Source of the DNA: a virus | DNA length: 22,222 nucleotides | Virus record (IMG/VR): IMGVR_UViG_3300029448_000495 | Span: 1-22,222 of that record | Direction: 5' to 3' (one strand) | Notes under the pieces: model-generated | The model's database searches: none | Told to the model about the DNA's origin: nothing | What the model saw: only the letters and a program-made list of their open reading frames with translations | Made by a program: the position numbers and the translations under genes | Shown: positions 6,789 to 22,222 of the stretch, in pieces | Numbering within the stretch: the stretch's first letter is position 1 | Layout: the number at the start of each line of letters is the position of its first letter

Positions 6789-9700
6789 ATGAGTTCTTAT
6801 TTAGAAAATGCTAAGGGTAATACCATAGAAGACATTAAGGATGATGTTGAGTTTCAAACGGACTTAGTTCGTTTTCTTTCTAGTAGTAGAAAAAATTACA
6901 GTGTAAATGAGTTAAGGAAAAAAGGCACTGACTTTATGATAGACGAGTATGTAGAACATATGAGGGCGCATGATGTTAATGAGGCCACAGTTTTGCAGGA
7001 CGTATACTTTGCAAGAGATGAAAATGCAAGGGAAAAAGATAAAGCTGCCTATGGAAAACTTATGTTACTTTGGGATACAGTTGAAGGAGCAGGTACAGGT
7101 AAACTTAAAGCTACAGGAGATTACTTAGAGGGAATGGTTACAGCACCCTCTAACTTACTTGCTGTAGGTACTGGTGGTTTTACAAAACTTGGAACTGCTG
7201 TAGCAACACAAGCACTTAGATTAAAAGCAAGAAAAGAATTTCGTAAATTTTTATCTAAAGAGTTTGCAAAAGGTTTTGCTAGGTCTGCTGCAGTAGAGGG
7301 TGCTATAGGTTATGGAATGATTGAGGGGCAGGAGGCTGCACGAGAAGCTACTGTAGAAGATTATGAAGGTATGTCACCAACACGTAAGGCAATATCCGTA
7401 GGAGTTCAGGCAGGGATAGGTGGAACATTAGGTGGTCTTTCAAGAGCAATGGATTCTAATTCTGCAAGTAAGGCTATTGATATTATTGATAAACAAGCTA
7501 TAGAAATATCTAAAAGCAAACTTCAATCTTCTAAAAAAGCTGTAAAAAAACTTGCTGATTTAAATCAAACAAAGGCAGGTAAAGATAAAGTTAATCGTAT
7601 CCTTGATAGGATGTCTTCATTAAATGAAGTTCTTGCTAAAAGAAAAGCAAAGCTTGAACCTTTAGATGTAGCAAAAACTACAGAGGGTCTTCTAATTAAA
7701 GATGAAATTTTAAAAGAAGGTGCAGATAAAAAACTTACTAGTGGTTTATCTAGGCACACATTACAATCTATAACAGGTGCAACGCTAGAGATTGTAGATA
7801 GGTTAGATATTAAAGAGGGGGAACGAATTAGCTCTGCTGTTGCGAGAGCTATAGAAAATAATACTGTTTCTACAAAAGAGATAGATCAAGTTATAAGTGA
7901 CTATGGTTTATCTAGGGAAGAGTTTAGTTATATATTCCTCTCTGATTTATCTGAGGCAGGTAGGACTTTGGGAGAAGCAGGAAGAATATCTCAAGCAGTT
8001 CAAAAAAATATAATTAAAAATATGGAAGACCTAGCTGATCAAGGGATATCTATTTATAATAGTGACCTCACTAGACAAGTTTTTGATGTTGTAGGTGTAG
8101 AGAAAACAAAGTTTAATACTATGGTTGATACTTTAAAAGGTATGGACTCAGTACGCATTGCCTTTATGACATCTCAGTTAGGAACTACAGCAGCTAATAC
8201 TTTATTTTCCACTGCAAGATTAGGTATTGATGTTGTAGATGAAGTTTTTAGACAGACATTAAGAACAGGTGGAGCAGCAATTAGAGGAGACAAGATACCT
8301 ATAAGTAATTTTAATGCTGTAACATCTGGTATTAGAGCTTTAACTTTATCTAAAACTGATGCAAAAGTTCTTAGATTAATGTTTGAAAGAGATTTGCCAG
8401 AAGAATATAGAAGAATATTTTATGATATAAATCGTGCAGAAATGTCTGCAAATGTAAACAGTGCTGCAGGTAGGTTAGGTTCTGCAGTAAATCTTTTAAA
8501 CAGTGCTGTAGATAGTAGATTTAAACAGGCTGCATTTTATGCATCGATAGATAGACAGCTTATCGAAAGAACTGGTGAAGGGGTATCTACTTTTTTAGAA
8601 AGAAATAACAGCCTAGTAGACTTACCAGAAAGTATACGTGATAAAGCTGTTTATGATTCTTTAGATTTTGTATTTCAAAAAGGTTATTCAAAAAAAGAAG
8701 GTGGTGGTATTGCAAACTTCTTTATAAAACTACACAAAGATGCTCCGTTTGTAGTGTCAGGTTTTCTTGGCATACCTTTTCCAAGATACGTAGCAAATCA
8801 TATGGAGTTTATAAATGACTACACACCTATTGGTTTAATTACAGGTGGTCCTAAAAAATTCTCAGACAATGTGTATTCTGGTGAGTTAAAAGATGTAAAT
8901 GAACGGTGGGCAAGACAACTCACAGGTGTTACTTTATTCTCTGGGGCTGTATACGCAAGGGCTTCTCAAGTAGAGTTTAATGAAGAGGGAGAAGCAGTAC
9001 GTATGAAAACTTCTTTTTCTGACATGCAGTTTGGAGAAGAGGGCGAGACAGCAAAACTTGGGCGTGTGGCTGGACCACTTGCAGCCCATCAACTTTTAGG
9101 GGATTTATATGTAAGATGGAAATATGATCTTCCAGTTCCAAAGCCAAGTGCTTTAATATCTGATACCTTAGAGGTAGCTGCTGGTCTTGGTAACATGGGT
9201 TTTGGTAAAGGATTAGTTTCTGATATTCAAAATGCAATAGACACTGGAGAGTTTGGAAGTTTAGGTAAAAGGTTGGCTAATATAGGAGCCACATTTACTT
9301 ATCCTACAACTGTACTAAGAGATGTACAAGGTCAAATTAATCCTGAACTTGGATACACACCCTATACAAGAAACTTAATGTTAGGTGACAATGTTCAAAA
9401 AGAGTACAACCTTCTTGAAGCTATGATAACAGATACAGAATCTATTAACAGGCTTGTTAGATTCTTACCAGAAACAGAATTAAAACAGTACACTCAGTCT
9501 TTTAATGGTGAAACTTCTACGGTTATAATGGACCCTTTTAGTGGTGGTCCTGTTAGGGCAGTTAATCCTTTGACTAAACAAATATTAGGTGTAGAAATGA
9601 GAACTGCACCAACAAGACTTCAAAAAGAAATAAATACTCTTGGATTAAAAGAGTACAGACTTTACTCTAAGAGTAGACTTAAAAATTCAGCTACAGATTA

Positions 9701-10133
9701 TTTAGTAAGATATGCTCTGACTGGAAAGATGCCAATGGCAAAAGAGTTTGAAGAAGAAATATCACAACCACTTAAGGCTTACGGAGGAACTAGGTCTTGG
9801 GAAGATTTAAATAAAAATGAAAAAATAGATTGGTTAGAAAGGTTTGTAAATAATAAAATTACGGCTGCTGAATCAGCAGTAGATTTATATTTTGAAGACC
9901 TTGCAAACAAAAGCCCAAGGGCGGCTGCAACTTATTTAAGAAATGTATATGAGATAGAAAGAAAATCTAAATCAAAAGACTTATTTAACAAGGCAGTCAC
10001 TGAACTAACAGGTGGGGAGTTTGATAATCCAGATGATTACATTAATGATTCCAGTAGTATTGAACAAGAACTTGAAAGAAAAGAAAATATGATTAGGGTA
10101 GTAGACCTAATGGATTCTAGGATACGTAACTAG
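6789..10133 (+). CDS. Large internal virion (DNA-ejection-type) protein
   Basis: A 1114-aa, mostly helical protein with several Gly/Ala-rich weakly hydrophobic segments (about residues 118-143, 166-184 and 201-218) and another at 653-690 (FVVSGFLGIPFPRYVA). These are not normal membrane spans but are the kind of sequence that can insert into a membrane. Residues 225-330 are Lys-rich and helical. Size, last position in the virion cassette and absence of enzymatic motifs resemble T7 gp16-like ejection proteins, except that the peptidoglycan hydrolase is encoded separately upstream. It ends with TAG at 10131-10133, overlapping the stop of the opposing gene. Confidence 0.7.
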   Translation: MSSYLENAKGNTIEDIKDDVEFQTDLVRFLSSSRKNYSVNELRKKGTDFMIDEYVEHMRAHDVNEATVLQDVYFARDENAREKDKAAYGKLMLLWDTVEGAGTGKLKATGDYLEGMVTAPSNLLAVGTGGFTKLGTAVATQALRLKARKEFRKFLSKEFAKGFARSAAVEGAIGYGMIEGQEAAREATVEDYEGMSPTRKAISVGVQAGIGGTLGGLSRAMDSNSASKAIDIIDKQAIEISKSKLQSSKKAVKKLADLNQTKAGKDKVNRILDRMSSLNEVLAKRKAKLEPLDVAKTTEGLLIKDEILKEGADKKLTSGLSRHTLQSITGATLEIVDRLDIKEGERISSAVARAIENNTVSTKEIDQVISDYGLSREEFSYIFLSDLSEAGRTLGEAGRISQAVQKNIIKNMEDLADQGISIYNSDLTRQVFDVVGVEKTKFNTMVDTLKGMDSVRIAFMTSQLGTTAANTLFSTARLGIDVVDEVFRQTLRTGGAAIRGDKIPISNFNAVTSGIRALTLSKTDAKVLRLMFERDLPEEYRRIFYDINRAEMSANVNSAAGRLGSAVNLLNSAVDSRFKQAAFYASIDRQLIERTGEGVSTFLERNNSLVDLPESIRDKAVYDSLDFVFQKGYSKKEGGGIANFFIKLHKDAPFVVSGFLGIPFPRYVANHMEFINDYTPIGLITGGPKKFSDNVYSGELKDVNERWARQLTGVTLFSGAVYARASQVEFNEEGEAVRMKTSFSDMQFGEEGETAKLGRVAGPLAAHQLLGDLYVRWKYDLPVPKPSALISDTLEVAAGLGNMGFGKGLVSDIQNAIDTGEFGSLGKRLANIGATFTYPTTVLRDVQGQINPELGYTPYTRNLMLGDNVQKEYNLLEAMITDTESINRLVRFLPETELKQYTQSFNGETSTVIMDPFSGGPVRAVNPLTKQILGVEMRTAPTRLQKEINTLGLKEYRLYSKSRLKNSATDYLVRYALTGKMPMAKEFEEEISQPLKAYGGTRSWEDLNKNEKIDWLERFVNNKITAAESAVDLYFEDLANKSPRAAATYLRNVYEIERKSKSKDLFNKAVTELTGGEFDNPDDYINDSSSIEQELERKENMIRVVDLMDSRIRN

Positions 10134-10354
10134 TCATCTTCCTCTAACATAAAGTCAGCCCACTCATACGCCTCACGTTTTAAATCACCCTTATGCATAG
10201 GACTAGGTGATCTTGATAATAAAGCAGCCATCGCTTGACCAGCCAGATATCTACGTGATGTCAACGGCTTGGCTTTAAGCGGTGGTTTTATTTTTTTCTG
10301 AGCATACTTCTTAGCTTCTTCTTCAAGTGTGTTTAGTTTTTTTGTTCTGCTCAT
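10130..10354 (-). CDS. Small basic protein of unknown function (74 aa)
   Basis: Last gene of the leftward cluster. I place the start at ATG 10354 (MSRTKKLNTLEEE) rather than the in-frame TTG at 10372, which lacks any ribosome-binding sequence. The N-terminal half is very basic (KKYAQKKIKPPLKAKPL); the C-terminal half is helical and ends acidic (LEEDD). The C-terminal segment HKGDLKREAYEWADFML is suggestive of a small helical interaction domain. It overlaps the RMF-like gene upstream by 32 bases, and its stop overlaps the stop of the convergent 1114-aa gene. Family unknown. Confidence 0.6.
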   Translation of the reverse strand: MSRTKKLNTLEEEAKKYAQKKIKPPLKAKPLTSRRYLAGQAMAALLSRSPSPMHKGDLKREAYEWADFMLEEDD

Positions 10355-10496
10355 ATGCCTTAACTCTCTCAAGGTTTAGGAAGTAGGCTTTGTTAAAGCC
10401 CATCTCCCATTCCCTATTATTTTTACTACCCTGTTCATAAGGGTTTCCCAAGTTGCCTGTCTTAAAGGCTAGTCTACCTTGTTCGTATGGCTTCAC
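10323..10496 (-). CDS. RMF/CrpP-like microprotein (57 aa, GTG start)
   Basis: The GTG start at 10494-10496 overlaps the stop of the upstream gene as GTGA and is preceded by AAGGAG eight bases away, a strong ribosome-binding site. The protein has the pattern PYEQG (3-7), a Gly-containing turn, NPYEQG (18-23), R28-x-W30 and MGFNKA (32-37). This follows E. coli ribosome modulation factor as I recall it: a G-containing first helix, CPY, RxxW and GGWREA. The usual CP is NP here, and the W of GGW is F. PYEQG occurs twice, suggesting an internal half-repeat. RMF binds and dimerises 70S ribosomes in stressed cells; whether a phage version acts on ribosomes is inference. A basic tail (KKTKHT) follows. 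Confidence 0.65.
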   Translation of the reverse strand: MKPYEQGRLAFKTGNLGNPYEQGSKNNREWEMGFNKAYFLNLERVKAYEQNKKTKHT

Positions 10497-10852
10497 TTAT
10501 GTATCTCCTTCATTTTTTCTATTGCTTTGTTTTGATACCACTGTGATTTTTGCATATCTTCAATAGGATTACCCTTGTAACCCTCACGATGTTGATACTT
10601 AATAGAGTTCCCCTTACAATATCCCTTAAACTCTTCTGGTGTTAGTACCTGCTCAATGTAATCGATACATTCTATACCACCAAGATTGTAGTGTGCAGGT
10701 TTAGTTACAGGATCATATTCCTTTCTGATAGTAAGATCATCAAGACTTGTGTCATCAAACAGTTCTGATATATTAAAGTCCTCTTCTTCATTACGTTGGC
10801 TTTTGAAGAAGGTAGTCTCTCCGTTGATGGTAAGTGTGTCAGTGTTGTCCAT
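10493..10852 (-). CDS. DUF3310 protein, T7 gp1.7-type nucleotide kinase family
   Basis: A 119-aa protein. Residues 1-45 are acidic and variable. From about 46 it has the DUF3310 signature: DPVTKPAHYN, then GIECIDYIEQVLTPEEFKGY, GNSIKY-x-HR, and KGNPIEDMQKSQWYQNKAIEK. T7 gp1.7, a member of this family, phosphorylates dTMP and dGMP. In a cluster with RNR, ThyX and MazG, a role in the nucleotide pool fits well, although many DUF3310 members are uncharacterised. The ribosome-binding site AAGGA lies before the ATG. Its TGA overlaps the downstream GTG. Confidence 0.85.
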   Translation of the reverse strand: MDNTDTLTINGETTFFKSQRNEEEDFNISELFDDTSLDDLTIRKEYDPVTKPAHYNLGGIECIDYIEQVLTPEEFKGYCKGNSIKYQHREGYKGNPIEDMQKSQWYQNKAIEKMKEIHK

Positions 10853-16082: not shown

Positions 16083-17915
16083 TTAGTGTACATCTGCGTA
16101 GGTTTGACCATACTGTATATCAATACCTAAGTCAACATTTAATTTTAGTTGTTCGTTAAGTTTTTCTATTGCCCACTGTAGGGCTGATGTGTGTTCATTC
16201 TCCTCACCTTTCCTAATAACATTAATACTTTCATCGTGGAACTGTCCTACAATGTTTGATCTCTTTGATCGATACAGTGCAACCCACCTATCAAAACAGT
16301 ATGCACCTGTGCTCTGGTTGATAGTAGAGAAAGCATCCTTCTTAAAACGTAGACTGTGCCAGAACTTACTAACTGGATTCTGTATCCACATATCTTTGTT
16401 TATCTCTCTTGGTTTCTGATCATTACAGAACTGCTTGACAGACCAGTTGCGGCTCCAGTAAGCCTCAAGTAAATCCTTAGCTTGGTCCTCAGACATATCT
16501 GTTTCACGAGATAGCTTAGGTGCACCAATACCATAGGTAGCAGAGTAGTTTACCACCTTGAAGTTCTTACGTAGTTCCTTTAGCTTTGGCATGTCACCTC
16601 TGTTGTATTTGTCTATCTCCTCTTGTGTAGCATATCCAGCATGTCTTGCCAAGTCTAAGTGAGGATCAAAACCAGACTGTGACATTTCTGCCACGTAGTC
16701 AGGATCATAGGGGTGCATGTAGTGACGCTTGGTTGTGTCCTCTAGTGAGGTCATGTCTGCACCACAGAGAAGGTATCCATCAGGTGCAGTCAAGCAGCCA
16801 CGTATTTCCATACCCCAAGGCTTGTCAACACCAGGAAGATTAACCAGAGGCTTCTGATGTTTGAACCGTAGTGTGTTAGTCAGGCCAGCAATCTCTGCTT
16901 TGACATAACCATCACGCTCACACTCTAAGAAACCTTTGAGTATACCTAGCCTGTGTTGCAGGACAGTTAGTCCATCAAGAACCTGCACCTGTTTGTTGTC
17001 CTTCATCAACCTCTTCACAGACTTAGTAAGCTCACCGTACACTCTGACTTGTGGTATCTTACGGTCATCAACATACTTGAATGTACATGGAGTCCAGCCA
17101 AGTCCAAACAGCCAGTCCTTAACCTGATCAGAAGACATAGGGTTAGCTGCCTCAACACCTTTAACAACTGTTACCTCACCCTCATAGTCATGGGGTAGTC
17201 CTTCATCATCTAGTATACCAAGCCACTTTTTTCCCTGTGAGGATAGTGATCCATCTTTTTTATAGCAGGACTTTGGTTTACTTTTGACTGCCATAATCTT
17301 TCGCATTGGCATAACGTCCACCAACTCTTGTGTTTTCTGATCTTGTAAATCCGTAAGCTGTTGCACGAGGTCTTGTGATTTTTGGACATCTAACTTCCAC
17401 CCTTGTTGCTCTGCTTCTTTAGCACAGTCCATTTTAAATTGAAGGTAACGAAAGAAACGATTAAGTTCTGTCTTGTCTTTGTAGATAAACATAAACCGTT
17501 TAATTAAGTCTTGCCACAGTTCACAGTTGATCTTCACATCTTCTTGACAACGATGTATATACTCCTCTTCAGTTAAGTTATGCCAATCAGTAATGACTGG
17601 TTTAGGTATACCAAAGTCTTCACCAAAGGTATCAAGACCATGCCGTGATCTGTTGTGGTTGAGCACCCAAGACATAGGTAGGGTATCAAACAACTGAGCC
17701 TTAATCTTTATACCAAGTATTCTTTCTAACAAAGGTACATCATATCGAACTATGTTATGTCCTATCAAACCCTTTGCATTAAGTAAGATATTACGCATAG
17801 CATTGTAGTCACTGGTGCTTACAAGTGGACCACCATTAGGATCACGATAGCTAAGACAATGTATCTTAGTTGCGTCCTCTAATAGACCATCTGCTTCTAT
17901 ATCAAACACTATCAT
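16083..17915 (-). CDS. DNA polymerase I-type (family A) with 3'-5' exonuclease
   Basis: A 610-aa replicative polymerase. Exonuclease motifs: D5-I-E7 (Exo I), N54...D59 (Exo II, GHNIVRYD) and Y119...D126 (Exo III), so proofreading looks intact. Polymerase motifs: A at D387 in CGADMTSLE, B at K453-V-V-N-Y457-S-A-T-Y461-G, and C at H560-D561-E562. Tyr457 sits where E. coli Pol I has Phe762, as in T7 gp5; this residue favours even use of dideoxy- and deoxynucleotides. There is no 5'-3' nuclease domain. The gene follows the primase-helicase with a 4-base ATGA overlap and is the central replication enzyme of the phage. Confidence 0.95.
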   Translation of the reverse strand: MIVFDIEADGLLEDATKIHCLSYRDPNGGPLVSTSDYNAMRNILLNAKGLIGHNIVRYDVPLLERILGIKIKAQLFDTLPMSWVLNHNRSRHGLDTFGEDFGIPKPVITDWHNLTEEEYIHRCQEDVKINCELWQDLIKRFMFIYKDKTELNRFFRYLQFKMDCAKEAEQQGWKLDVQKSQDLVQQLTDLQDQKTQELVDVMPMRKIMAVKSKPKSCYKKDGSLSSQGKKWLGILDDEGLPHDYEGEVTVVKGVEAANPMSSDQVKDWLFGLGWTPCTFKYVDDRKIPQVRVYGELTKSVKRLMKDNKQVQVLDGLTVLQHRLGILKGFLECERDGYVKAEIAGLTNTLRFKHQKPLVNLPGVDKPWGMEIRGCLTAPDGYLLCGADMTSLEDTTKRHYMHPYDPDYVAEMSQSGFDPHLDLARHAGYATQEEIDKYNRGDMPKLKELRKNFKVVNYSATYGIGAPKLSRETDMSEDQAKDLLEAYWSRNWSVKQFCNDQKPREINKDMWIQNPVSKFWHSLRFKKDAFSTINQSTGAYCFDRWVALYRSKRSNIVGQFHDESINVIRKGEENEHTSALQWAIEKLNEQLKLNVDLGIDIQYGQTYADVH

Positions 17916-19525
17916 AGGTGTACAACATTGTCTGTTTGTGTAAAGGGTACATCCTCTGTAAGTATAGTTGTATCAGGGTCATAGTAGACTGCCCCTGCAT
18001 TACCCAACCTAGCGAAGGGTCTGTTCTTATCCACGATAAAGTTAGTAGTGTTCTGCAATATTTCATCCTCTGATTCTACATCTCTGTCTATCTTTATACA
18101 GATTATTGCTTCTTCTTCAAGAGAGGCTGCGTACTTTGTTCTACCATCATCATTGACCTGTGATATAAATACCACACCAATGTTCAACTCCTTGGCTAGT
18201 TGTGCCATACGTGCACCTAGTGTTGTGAGTGTACTTGTAGCACCATCAACGCCAGTGTTAGATAGGTATGCTAAACGCTGTACGTGATCAACAAATATAT
18301 AGTCAGCCCCAAACACAGTAGCCGCAGTACGAGTATGATCAAGTAACTTAAGTGGATCATCGTGACTCCTCATTTCAAACACGATAGTTCTGTTGTTCTC
18401 TGTGTCAGCAGCTATCTGTCCTGCACGTATCACCTCGTCTATGCTTACGTTGTTTGCTGCAGCATCATCATTTGTTCTGACATTACATCCAAGATGGTAG
18501 GTAGCCATAGCTCTGTAGGTGGTAGACTTCATCTCTTCCATGTGAAGCAGTGCTACCCTAATACCATGAGTCCTTAGTAGGCCAGCCTCAAAGTAACGTA
18601 TCACCTCAGTCTTACCTGTACCCCTTGGTGCTTTGATGAATGTCAGTCCACCCTTAACCATACCCCTGATCTTACTGTCAAGACCTGAGTGACCTGTTGG
18701 TGTGTATGAGTATGGGTTCTCATTACGTATGGCTGCATCTACATCCTGACATGTGATAAAGAAGTTGTCAGGTGAATACTTCTGTGGCTTCATTGCTGCC
18801 CACATAAGTTCCTTACCATCCCCTGCAAACAGGAAGTCATTGGCATCCTTATGCTTGGACATAGGCACGTAGTAGAACTTCTCTGGTAGCACAGAATAAA
18901 TCTTATCTGCAGCAGCCTTACCTGCAGTGTCTAGTTCCCCTGCATAAATGACTGTCTCAAAAGACTTAAGGTAGTCTAGGTTCTTCTGCAGAAACTTCTC
19001 TCCTATCGATGCGCTGGGTAGTGACTTGACAGGAAACTTCTCACCAAGAATCTCATACAGACTAGCTGCATCAAACTCACCCTCAGTTAGGTACAGACGC
19101 TTGCTTGTACCTGCATTAAACTCAGGGCCAAACAGGTGTACCATACCTAAGCCTGTGTCCTTCACCCAAGTCTTAGACTTATCATTGAAAGCCCTATACT
19201 TGGTGGTGTGTGGATACTTGTAGGCATACCTAACAGGTTGCCCATCCTCACCCAACTGTATCTGAATACCATAGAGTTGACACACATCAGGCTTGATACC
19301 TCTTATGTCCTCATAGGTTCCAGACTTTACGTTTACGTCCATAATATTTATCCTTTGCTTTACTGGATATTGATCCTTAGCCCAATCAAATGTAGGCTTA
19401 GAACTAGGGTAGGAAGTACCGCAACTGTGGCAGTAGCCATACCCTTCATCGTTCCAATTAAATGCATCACTTGATCCACAGTCCTCAAACGGACAAGCCA
19501 AGTGTGGTGTATCACCGTCTGCCAT
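17912..19525 (-). CDS. T7 gp4-like primase-helicase
   Basis: A 537-aa bifunctional protein. Zinc-binding module: C11, C16, C32, C35. Toprim-like primase core: Glu149 in LTEGEFDA, and E197-L-D199 in AGELDTAGKAAA, where most primases have D-x-D. Helicase core: Walker A KAPRGTGKT (298-306), Walker B ending D413 in YIFVDHVQRL, and a later DnaB-type motif FISQVNDDGRTKYAAS (453-468). It unwinds the fork and lays primers; the 537 residues match T7 gp4 (566 aa). The gene overlaps thyX by 14 bases and carries its own GGAG ribosome-binding sequence inside it. Confidence 0.93.
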   Translation of the reverse strand: MADGDTPHLACPFEDCGSSDAFNWNDEGYGYCHSCGTSYPSSKPTFDWAKDQYPVKQRINIMDVNVKSGTYEDIRGIKPDVCQLYGIQIQLGEDGQPVRYAYKYPHTTKYRAFNDKSKTWVKDTGLGMVHLFGPEFNAGTSKRLYLTEGEFDAASLYEILGEKFPVKSLPSASIGEKFLQKNLDYLKSFETVIYAGELDTAGKAAADKIYSVLPEKFYYVPMSKHKDANDFLFAGDGKELMWAAMKPQKYSPDNFFITCQDVDAAIRNENPYSYTPTGHSGLDSKIRGMVKGGLTFIKAPRGTGKTEVIRYFEAGLLRTHGIRVALLHMEEMKSTTYRAMATYHLGCNVRTNDDAAANNVSIDEVIRAGQIAADTENNRTIVFEMRSHDDPLKLLDHTRTAATVFGADYIFVDHVQRLAYLSNTGVDGATSTLTTLGARMAQLAKELNIGVVFISQVNDDGRTKYAASLEEEAIICIKIDRDVESEDEILQNTTNFIVDKNRPFARLGNAGAVYYDPDTTILTEDVPFTQTDNVVHL

Positions 19526-20327
19526 TTGCTACACTCTTCTCCTTTCCTCTTTGTCTTTCATCTTCTGTCATGTCACGTATCGTGCTCTGTGTCAACCCCA
19601 AAAGAGATTGCCAGGAATTAGGGAATAGATCAAGCATAACTTTACTGATCTGGTGAGCTATATCTCTAGTCTCCCCCTGCGTATCATCCTTACACCTGAG
19701 TATACACATATCTGCAAATGCGTCAAGACTACCTGACCAATACCATTCTGTCATGGTGCTTTGAGGCAACACCATACGTGCTTGCTCTGGACAAATATTG
19801 TTTGCTAACAATTCTTTATAAATTGCAAAAGAGCTAGAGTAAGTATTGTCTTCTACATACCTAGACGTATTAGTTTCCCAGTAATCAGCTAAGTATGCTT
19901 TATCATCTGCATAATCTTCAGTATCGTCACATTGCAATTCGTTTACAAAACCATTACCACTCCCTTGTTTTTTATCGTCAGCCCTCTCTCTCCAGTTCTC
20001 AGGTACATAGAACTCAGGATCATTATCTACGTACCTACGGCTTATTTCATTCCACCGTAGGAACTTATGCTTCACTAGTTGTCTAGCTACGAAGATGGGA
20101 GCCTTGACATGGAACGACACAAAGCAGTGACCAAAGGGTGACATGTGCTCATGCTTGGCTAGGTAACGTATTAATTTTAGATCACTGTCATGTAAGACAG
20201 GACGCATAGTGCCACCATCTGCACCAGTGTAGCCAAGGGCTTCTACCTTTTTACCAAAGGATACCCTAGCTGCATTGACCACTGTGAGGTCATCACCCAT
20301 ATGGTTTATGTAAGTTGCTCTAATCAT
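19512..20327 (-). CDS. thyX: Flavin-dependent thymidylate synthase
   Basis: A 271-aa enzyme that methylates dUMP to dTMP using FAD and folate. The signature region is present: H61-M-S-P-F-G-H67, the strand FVSFHVKAPIFVARQ, then K86-H87-K88...R91-W-N93-E94-I-S96-R-R98-Y99. The canonical ThyX motif is RHRxxSxNExSxRY, so R, R and the first S are replaced by K, K and R while NE, S96 and RY are kept; this variant matches what I recall for marine phage ThyX proteins. PEQARMVLP (180-188) follows. An insertion-like acidic stretch (about 120-165) separates the halves. The start overlaps the 33-aa gene by ATGA. It supplies thymidine for phage DNA beside the RNR. Confidence 0.92.
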   Translation of the reverse strand: MIRATYINHMGDDLTVVNAARVSFGKKVEALGYTGADGGTMRPVLHDSDLKLIRYLAKHEHMSPFGHCFVSFHVKAPIFVARQLVKHKFLRWNEISRRYVDNDPEFYVPENWRERADDKKQGSGNGFVNELQCDDTEDYADDKAYLADYWETNTSRYVEDNTYSSSFAIYKELLANNICPEQARMVLPQSTMTEWYWSGSLDAFADMCILRCKDDTQGETRDIAHQISKVMLDLFPNSWQSLLGLTQSTIRDMTEDERQRGKEKSVANGRR

Positions 20328-20425
20328 TTATCACCTGCTAGTAGTATCTTTTCTAGTAAAGCTAAACGCCTCTCAAGTTCAAGAACACGCTTAGATAATT
20401 CTTCTACATAAAAGTTACTGTTCAT
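20324..20425 (-). CDS. 33-aa coiled-coil microprotein
   Basis: ATG at 20425 overlaps the upstream stop (ATGA) and its own TGA overlaps the thyX start (ATGA). Leucines fall in heptad-like spacing through YVEELSKRVLELERRL, giving a short leucine-zipper helix. An AGAAGGA ribosome-binding sequence lies about ten bases upstream. Such tiny proteins often form dimers or bind a partner, but no function is known. Evidence is the coupled overlaps, the ribosome-binding site and the coiled-coil pattern. Confidence 0.6.
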   Translation of the reverse strand: MNSNFYVEELSKRVLELERRLALLEKILLAGDK

Positions 20426-20598
20426 ATTTGTTTTATCCTTCTTATTATGTATCCAAAAAGTACAACCTGCATCCATACTATCCAGATAACTATTGTGTCT
20501 ATATCCTCTACATTAATTCCTACAGTAACCATAACAGCTACGTTTAAAATCATCAGGAAGTAAGCTATCATAGGAATTAATATCAAGAACCATATCAT
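20422..20598 (-). CDS. 58-aa two-membrane-span protein
   Basis: The start overlaps the upstream gene by ATGA and its TGA overlaps the downstream ATG by ATGA. Residues about 3-27 (WFLILIPMIAYFLMILNVAV) and 36-52 (IVIWIVWMQVVLFGYII) are hydrophobic, separated by an acidic turn (VEDID) and followed by a basic tail RRIKQI, consistent with a hairpin in the inner membrane and both ends inside. Its role is unknown. It forms a small membrane cluster with the putative lipoprotein just upstream. Confidence 0.65.
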   Translation of the reverse strand: MIWFLILIPMIAYFLMILNVAVMVTVGINVEDIDTIVIWIVWMQVVLFGYIIRRIKQI

Positions 20599-20795
20599 TT
20601 AGTTTTCCCCATATTCATAGGTGCATACACCTCACCATTGTAGTTTGGATACTTCTTCTTATCATCAACTCCAAAGTTACATGATGCAAGAAGGAGTAGC
20701 GTACCTATGATTACATACGTACCTGTCTTACACCACTGTAAGAAGCTCATGTATGTAGCCTCTGCTTCTATCTGCGCTGCTTCTCTAGGGGTCAT
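20595..20795 (-). CDS. Putative small lipoprotein or membrane protein (66 aa)
   Basis: I place the start at ATG 20795 (MTPREAAQIEAEATYM), behind a GGGGGAGAAA ribosome-binding region inside the upstream gene. Residues 25-39 form a hydrophobic segment ending L36-A-S-C39, a good lipobox. The segment before it is long for a lipoprotein signal (24 residues), but Met16 (ATG at 20750, with AGAGG upstream) would give a classical signal, so two starts may exist. After C39 comes a short polar tail (DDKKKYPNYNGEVYAP). If processed it would be lipid-anchored outside the cytoplasmic membrane. Early phage lipoproteins often block superinfecting phage; that role is inference only. Confidence 0.6.
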   Translation of the reverse strand: MTPREAAQIEAEATYMSFLQWCKTGTYVIIGTLLLLASCNFGVDDKKKYPNYNGEVYAPMNMGKTK

Positions 20796-21000
20796 ACATT
20801 TCTCCCCCATCTCCAAACATTGCATCCCAATCATCAGGGGTAATACCTGTCTTAATAAACTCTCTTTCATCAGGTGTCAAGTTAGGAAATGCATCTTGTA
20901 TCAATGCACCTTTTTCCCAAGCAACAAACTGATCTTTGGTTACGTCTAAATCCATAACATTTATCTTACCAGATATAGGACTAAGCCTTGGAAATTTCAT
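20785..21000 (-). CDS. Small conserved-type phage protein of unknown function (71 aa)
   Basis: Start at ATG 21000 (MKFPRLSPISGKINVMDLD), seven bases after AAGGAG; an in-frame GTG two codons earlier is less well placed. It is acidic with a helical core containing GALIQDAFPNLTPDEREFIKTG followed by ITPDDWDAMFG. I recognise this pattern (LIQDAFP..TPDEREF.. TGITP..WD) from small early proteins of many marine and other phages, where it has no assigned function. It overlaps the T5orf172 gene upstream by 20 bases and the putative lipoprotein downstream by 11 bases. Confidence 0.8.
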   Translation of the reverse strand: MKFPRLSPISGKINVMDLDVTKDQFVAWEKGALIQDAFPNLTPDEREFIKTGITPDDWDAMFGDGGEMYDP

Positions 21001-21478
21001 CTTCACTCTCCTTTATGTGTTCTAGTATAACTATAGCTTCCTCACCTGTGATCTTAAACCACTCACCCTGTCTCTCACCACATAGGGCTGCGGCCTTGTG
21101 TGCTACACGCTCTGCCTTACCCCTATCCTGAGAGGATACAGAGTGTATCAGTTTATAGTCACGCATAGGTGAGCTTGTCTGATACCCATTGAGCCTATCC
21201 TCTGCATCGATTGCCATACCTATCTTGATCCAGTCAGGCCATGCAGGATTACTGATTGCATACACGTACCCCTCTTTTACTTTTACATCCTTCTGTAGAG
21301 AAGTAAAGGCAGCATCATTAAAGTTAGAATAACGTCCTGGTTTATGTAATGGGTGAGCCATAGGTATATACTTACCGTTGACCCACATCTGAGATTCTTT
21401 TCTTTTCTTTACTGATTCTGGATTATCCTTGTAGTAATATTTCTTACCTGTCTTTGGATTAATTTCTTGAGTCATCAT
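20981..21478 (-). CDS. T5orf172-domain protein (GIY-YIG-like nuclease fold)
   Basis: A 165-aa protein. Residues 1-65 are basic and polar, with KTGKKYYYKDNPESVKKRKE and a MWVNGKYIP motif. From 70 on there is a GIY-YIG superfamily signature of the T5orf172/MUG113 type: GYVYAISNP (70-78), WIKIG (83-87), Arg95, Glu123 in GKAERVAHKAA, and GEWFKIT (138-144). The fold suggests a DNA nuclease or DNA-binding role. GGAG lies a few bases before the first of two adjacent ATGs. It sits between the integrase-side small gene and the 71-aa gene in the early cluster. Activity is unproven for most members of this family. Confidence 0.8.
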   Translation of the reverse strand: MMTQEINPKTGKKYYYKDNPESVKKRKESQMWVNGKYIPMAHPLHKPGRYSNFNDAAFTSLQKDVKVKEGYVYAISNPAWPDWIKIGMAIDAEDRLNGYQTSSPMRDYKLIHSVSSQDRGKAERVAHKAAALCGERQGEWFKITGEEAIVILEHIKESEDEISKA

Positions 21479-21602
21479 AACTATCTCCTTTGTGCTTCTC
21501 TTTACGTACTGGTTTAGGTTTCTTCTTGTCAGGTATCACCTGCTGTTTGTACTTAGGTTGCCTGACATCCTTAGCCATAGGGTTTTTAATGTAGCTTTTC
21601 AC
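21459..21602 (-). CDS. 47-aa Lys/Pro-rich basic microprotein (GTG start)
   Basis: GTG at 21600-21602 overlaps the integrase TGA as GTGA and is preceded by TAGGAG nine bases away. The protein contains KNPMAKDVRQPKYKQQVIPD and then KKKPKPVRKEKHKGD. The pattern NP-x-AK-x-(L/V)R-x-P-(K/Q)-(Y/F)-x-x-x-V followed by a Lys-rich tail is one I recall from many short phage proteins of unknown function. Very basic and small, it may bind nucleic acid. An alternative start is ATG at 21578 (39 aa), which lacks a clear ribosome-binding site. Confidence 0.7.
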   Translation of the reverse strand: MKSYIKNPMAKDVRQPKYKQQVIPDKKKPKPVRKEKHKGDSYDDSRN

Positions 21603-22222
21603 TGTCTCTGTCTCCTATCCAAGGCAGACCTAGCTGTTTCCAAAGTAAACTTATTGTATGGGTTAAGGCTTGCTACATTCTTGTGTCCTGTTGCTGACTG
21701 TATTGCTAGTGCCTCTGCGCCACCCAATATCATTTCAATTATTGCAGTCTTCCTTAAGTCTCCCACTTGTAGTTCATCAGGTAGACCAACAGCATCCTTA
21801 ACTTGTCTTAGCTGGTGTGTCATTTGCATAACTGTTAGTGGTCTGTAGGCATTGTCCTGTGGTCTGTGGTGAGGTACTACCCATTCCTGAAAGCCCCATG
21901 TATCCTCTTGCTGTTTGAGCATAGCATTTAAGTTATCAGGAACAGGTAGTTCCACCCTCGCACCACGCTTGGTCTGCTTAATCTTTACCACTTGCTTATC
22001 TAAGTCTACGTTATCCCACCTTAAACTTCTGATATCGATTGGACGCTGCGCCCACTCATAGGCCATCATCACAATCAATCCAATGCTTGTCCAGTTACCT
22101 CTCGTAAATGCTGTATCAAGGAACGACATAACCTGATCATGTGTCCACACTACAGACCTTGGCTCACTTGTTCTCTTCCTAACCTTAGCCATTGGGTTCT
22201 TTGATATAAAGTCCATAGCCAC
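21599..22222 (-). CDS. int: Tyrosine recombinase/integrase, C-terminal catalytic part
   Basis: The frame runs off the right edge; the visible 207 residues contain the catalytic domain. R60 (AQRPIDIRSLRW), K85 (KQTKRGAR), the G154-D-L-R157 box, G179-H180 (ATGHKNVAS) and the nucleophile Y189 (NPYNKF) are in order. The first position of the HxxR box is Gly rather than His. Such enzymes join phage and host att sites. The core-binding N-terminal domain should lie beyond the window. No attP, excisionase or repressor is visible here. It is the first gene of the leftward cluster in this window and its stop overlaps the next GTG. Confidence 0.88.
   Translation of the reverse strand: MAMDFISKNPMAKVRKRTSEPRSVVWTHDQVMSFLDTAFTRGNWTSIGLIVMMAYEWAQRPIDIRSLRWDNVDLDKQVVKIKQTKRGARVELPVPDNLNAMLKQQEDTWGFQEWVVPHHRPQDNAYRPLTVMQMTHQLRQVKDAVGLPDELQVGDLRKTAIIEMILGGAEALAIQSATGHKNVASLNPYNKFTLETARSALDRRQRQ

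Follow-up and report, generated by a model that had tools for sequence, protein, structure and literature searches.

A predicted RMF/CrpP-fold small protein encoded among nucleotide-metabolism genes defines a divergent subfamily in marine podoviruses

The 57-aa product of a small gene on a 22,222-base viral contig (the window) is very probably a member of the Rmf/CrpP fold superfamily. Binding of the ribosome or of RNA by this protein is quite possible, at somewhat short of an even chance, and the combination of the fold identity with ribosome or RNA binding is put forward tentatively. The window type is described as a divergent marine-podovirus subfamily in which the basic N-terminal tail of ribosome modulation factor (RMF) is missing and the C-terminal helix is long. 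Phage Rmf/CrpP-fold proteins are already named in NCBIfam (Rmf_like_phage, NF041887) and a protein of phage Milano has already been named as RMF-type (PMC6588377), so the window protein adds a divergent representative to a known phage RMF/CrpP type. What is new is the divergent subfamily, unannotated in phages CRP-1, CRP-345 and HMO-2011, with an account of the residues kept and lost. An RMF/CrpP-fold assignment is now available for the hypothetical proteins of these three phages and for those on hundreds of metagenomic contigs, and the alignment of RMF residues that are kept (fold) and lost (tail, R45) makes action on the ribosome directly testable instead of leaving a name copied from an HMM.

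The first-pass annotation had described a 57-aa gene between the DUF3310 gene and the last gene of the operon, preceded by an AAGGAG site and with a GTG start and a GTGA overlap. All of these elements were confirmed, with the addition that the gene lies on the minus strand, which had been left unstated (Table 1). Its translation is MKPYEQGRLAFKTGNLGNPYEQGSKNNREWEMGFNKAYFLNLERVKAYEQNKKTKHT. The codon immediately 5' of the GTG start is TAA, the AAGGAG position is purine-rich in the orthologues, and an ATGA or GTGA overlap with DUF3310 was present in 109 of 114 window-type loci. Over codons 2-46, pN/pS was 0.11-0.42 against the 19 non-identical orthologues, dN/dS was mostly 0.05-0.27 where computable, and one copy (L001) was identical to the window. 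The open reading frame is a real gene under purifying selection, beyond chance. At 5 of the 114 loci (including L023, L024, L109 and L111) GTA or ATA stands in place of the start codon, which would favour the view that it is not a real gene; this view has practically no chance of being correct, as it is refuted by the codon analysis, and the conserved ribosome-binding site and the occurrence of at least 462 relatives on viral contigs also stand against it. In the GTA- and ATA-start loci the DUF3310 stop and the remaining frame are intact, and an in-frame ATG upstream inside DUF3310 would add a basic N-terminal tail.

Table 1. Features of the RMF-like gene and its neighbours, in positions of the window.
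Feature	Position	Strand	Remark
Probable RMF/CrpP-fold small protein, 57 aa, GTG start	10323..10496	minus	
Shine-Dalgarno AAGGAG	10505..10510	minus	8 nt upstream of GTG
GTGA start/stop overlap with DUF3310 gene, 4 nt	10493..10496	minus	likely translational coupling
First PYEQG, residues 3-7, start of helix 1	10476..10490	minus	conserved as P[YF][ED]xG
Second PYEQG, residues 19-23, inter-helix loop	10428..10442	minus	only NPY/NPF/NPH conserved
C-terminal helix extension, residues 38-55, AYFxNLxRVKxxEQ	10332..10385	minus	kept across marine phage group, absent from RMF
DUF3310 protein (T7 1.7-type nucleotide-kinase-associated domain)	10493..10852	minus	directly upstream of RMF-like gene
Last operon gene, no assigned function	10130..10354	minus	32-nt overlap with RMF-like gene

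The RMF sequence pattern that had been noted in the protein was found in full, with NPY at residues 18-20, R28-E29-W30 and G33-F-N-K-A37. Homology to RMF was supported at the level of the fold, through matches of orthologues and structure comparison, but not as a Pfam match of the protein itself. Searched alone, the window protein had no match in Pfam, NCBIfam or PHROGs, and PF04957 gave nothing at E ≤ 1 against it, the curated cut-off being 27.9 bits. Orthologues matched PF04957 below this cut-off (12.8-16.4 bits), with E-values of 0.017 for L006 (which shares 84-88% identity with the window protein, according to the method used), 0.0098 for L080, 0.019 for L076, 0.026 for L112 and 0.13 for L024. 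Among 30 aligned relatives, PF04957 was matched by 12 (best E 0.0013) and was the commonest Pfam match, at three times any other family. The NCBIfam model Rmf_CrpP_fam (NF041886) was matched by five of these relatives (best E 0.00085) and Rmf_like_phage by three (best E 0.0075), the NCBIfam matches being confined to Rmf/CrpP models and one stray.

A chain of linking sequences to curated Rmf/CrpP members was found, made up of the Milano protein (34.5 bits against PF04957, above the cut-off), CcrSC gp271 (scoring 22.7 bits against a profile built from five canonical RMFs and 14.2 bits against that of the window type) and a three-subfamily profile built locally from window-type, CRP-1-type and HMO-2011-type proteins. 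E. coli RMF scored 16.1 bits with the three-subfamily profile (P ~5e-7 for one comparison), and the hhalign score of this profile against RMF was above all 200 column shuffles. With a tool-built version of this wide profile, E. coli RMF ranked first of 177,635 PDB sequences at an E-value of 0.5 that is not significant alone, and rmf was not returned when an E. coli chromosome was searched with it. A mixed profile of RMF and phage proteins gave the window protein 23.1 bits; there is some circularity in this score and in the A3-A5 hhalign match, Milano having been the route to the phage members, and neither is relied on. When the window-type family was compared with the five canonical RMFs by hhalign, the probability was 0.2, equal to that of column shuffles, and with the canonical-RMF profile the score of the window protein did not exceed that of shuffled sequences. 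No significance was reached when profiles were compared directly with gammaproteobacterial RMF alone, and profiles without the tailed subfamilies in number gave no significant match to RMF.

The predicted structure of the 57-aa protein has the helix-loop-helix fold of RMF. One of five models was good in the first AF2 run, and with a deeper alignment all five had a pLDDT of 88.9-92.7, with a helix at residues 3-13, a loop and a helix at residues 25-55. A comparison with E. coli RMF had been proposed as a check, and RMF structures were the best match for the models of both runs. In VIA-align, E. coli RMF had Z 5.4 (44 residues, rmsd 2.3 for the 9iot entry; 2jrm and 9iot are both RMF) and Vibrio RMF likewise Z 5.4 (49 residues, rmsd 2.9), the next entry being at Z 3.0, and window protein residues 1-45 were aligned with RMF 10-55. 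RMF was also the first Foldseek match in both runs, with weak E-values (2.2 and 3.6) for a very small protein. Many small phage proteins, including some that carry the name ribosome modulation factor, were matched by the model in a comparison with predicted viral proteins.

In E. coli RMF, ribosome binding needs the N-terminal residues, G16, C29, W40 and W44, and dimerisation needs R3, K5, R11, G23, P30, G43 and R45 (PMC8126665). RMF without its 5 or 10 N-terminal residues shows neither binding nor dimerisation, C29A and W44A lose binding, R45A strongly impairs dimerisation, R45 is a reported rRNA contact, and the factor acts on the 30S subunit close to the anti-SD sequence (PMC8126665). The window protein has each of the two residue sets in part. 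For binding, G16 and W40 are kept as G7 and W30, and C29 and W44 are replaced by N18 and F34. For dimerisation, G23, P30 and G43 are kept as G14, P19 and G33, R11 corresponds to K2 (the replacement for R11 being Lys or Arg) and R45 is replaced by N35. The basic N-terminal tail of RMF, including R3 and K5, has no counterpart. The window protein retains the residues by which the two helices of RMF are held together, and its net charge is +4.6 compared with +6.6 for E. coli RMF. The window protein therefore shares with E. coli and Vibrio RMF (PF04957; 6H4N, 9IOT, 2JRM) the two-helix hairpin, the size, the basic charge and the five kept positions, and differs from them in the missing tail, the long extra C-terminal helix, the three substitutions and a score below the PF04957 cut-off. 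Canonical 100S formation is unlikely because the tail and R45 are missing and the fold residues alone are kept. The first-pass suggestion that the protein parks host ribosomes is unsupported, and the absence of the tail, C29 and R45 partly argues against it.

Both copies of PYEQG highlighted in the first-pass annotation are present, but the second is not conserved and lies in a variable loop. Among window-type orthologues, the second copy was found only in the window virus and L001, the others having NPYQAQT, NPHRPNT, NPYSKNT or NPFVEDT at the site. Any repeated 5-mer occurred in 157 of 100,000 shuffles of the window protein, so the repeat is unlikely by composition. Origin by recent DNA duplication was considered and rejected, since there are differences between the copies at three third codon positions and the second copy is absent from neighbours. 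The doubled PYEQG is given no functional meaning.

DUF3310 lies directly upstream of the RMF-like gene in 112 of 114 related viral loci and the same next gene follows it in 113. The gene was always located among RNR, MazG and DUF3310 genes, and its neighbour varies by subfamily (DUF3310 in the window type, MazG in the CRP-1 and HMO-2011 types), which implies no fixed partner gene. By hand count, restricted to contigs that reach the last gene of the module, 33 of 50 phages with a related polymerase carry it, and in phages without it DUF3310 often directly adjoins the last gene. A probable SleB/CwlJ-type cell-wall hydrolase, recognised by eye from the sequence, occupies the slot in L362 (16850-17272) and L365 (16832-17251). 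The RMF-like gene is thus accessory and sits in a variable slot, being present in part of these phages with the slot elsewhere empty or taken by the putative hydrolase.

The DNA polymerase of the window is closest to that of roseophage CRP-6, and a virion-module gene (6789-10133) is closest to CRP-13 and CRP-2; for these reasons an assignment of the phage to the HMO-2011 type was dropped. The CRP-6-type polymerase lies within 16083-22222 together with an integrase at the edge of the contig. The phage is a recombinant and probably temperate, in agreement with reported recombinants that combine a CRP-6-type replication module with an HMO-2011-type virion module and an integrase (PMC8528129). A host of the Roseobacter or SAR116 kind is likely because cultured relatives infect these alphaproteobacteria. 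A scan of bacterial genomes for the RMF-like protein returned only one contig, from an archaeal-labelled MAG, in which the match adjoins phage-type RNR and DUF3310.

We infer, for both its timing and its docking, a small basic docking protein that would be made early alongside the nucleotide-metabolism genes. Its most likely single target would be the 30S subunit of the host, or RNA carried on that subunit; there an RMF-fold protein could tune translation as the phage takes over, with no 100S dimers formed. Phages are known to carry genes for the ribosome-associated proteins HPF, bS21 and bL12 (PMC6375957). The full proposal, that a tail-less RMF-fold protein of abundant marine podoviruses, produced together with the genes for DNA building blocks, sits at the RMF site of the host 30S subunit and steers translation as a hibernation-factor variant with no ribosome dimers, is unlikely in so specific a form. 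Strong SD sites in several genes of the window phage count against a blocking of the anti-SD sequence, since this would also harm the phage.

Ribosome or RNA binding without dimerisation is about equally likely as a protein target away from the ribosome. According to the latter reading, itself a possibility of rather less than even chance, the RMF fold has a non-ribosomal job and binds a host or phage protein through the conserved face REWEMGFNKAYFxNLxRVKxxEQ, candidate partners being a regulator, a kinase, a defence component or a nucleotide-metabolism enzyme. BatR (PA3049) of P. aeruginosa gives a precedent, as an RMF homologue that has the kinase PA0486 as an interaction partner and plays no part in ribosome hibernation (PMC13411936); it is likened to the window protein by description only and is a chromosomal bacterial gene, unlike the phage-borne window gene. 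The loss of the rRNA-contacting residues of RMF with conservation of the long phage-specific helix, and the constant setting among RNR, MazG and DUF3310 genes in a variable slot, also favour a protein target, whereas the retained basic character and the change of adjoining gene between subfamilies do not, and any candidate partner is hypothetical. A canonical hibernation factor that converts host 70S ribosomes into 100S dimers is very improbable. It would agree with the fold match, the five kept positions and the Lys or Arg at R11, but not with the missing tail or the changes at C29, W44 and R45; moreover, 100S formation by RMF is described as gammaproteobacterial and the cultured relatives infect alphaproteobacteria. 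It is improbable, too, that the likeness to RMF reflects convergence of a small two-helix hairpin in an unrelated phage family. The non-significant direct comparisons and a Z of 5.4, modest for a small helical protein, would allow this, but G-x6-G, P, W, GF and A occur in identical order across the phage subfamilies, and the predominance of PF04957 among Pfam matches and the linking sequences argue for a relationship.

Returning to the Rmf/CrpP-fold assignment, the protein named in Agrobacterium phage Milano (gp060, QBQ72082, RMF-domain superfamily) is, like the window protein, phage-encoded and tail-less, and the two share the core MxPYxQG...NPYE.G...W..G[FY] with 44% identity in the aligned part. 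Milano is a myophage, and gp060 has no long C-terminal helix and exceeds the PF04957 cut-off, unlike the window protein. The Milano genome (L078, MK637516) has three PF04957 matches, at 43456, 43598 and 49523, of which one is over the cut-off.

The proteins CRP-1 gp29, CRP-345 gp38 and HMO-2011 gene 20, annotated as hypothetical, share both the core and the C-terminal helix with the window protein (38-52% identity in the aligned part) and are encoded in the same module behind RNR, in genes that precede MazG. Unlike the window protein, they are extended at the N-terminus by a conserved tail, GLGKYDAPLK or GLTKYDAPLK. In the tailed relatives (L076, L077, L079 and L179-L305) this tail is almost invariant as GL[GTS]KYDAPL[KR]; in the CRP-1 and HMO-2011 proteins it is preceded by basic residues and differs from the RMF tail. 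HMO-2011-type proteins also have a loop insertion of ~10-13 residues. An RMF-like stretch was also observed near the N-terminus of a 143-aa hypothetical protein on the Pseudomonas plasmids pPma4326F and pQBR103 (L170, L171).
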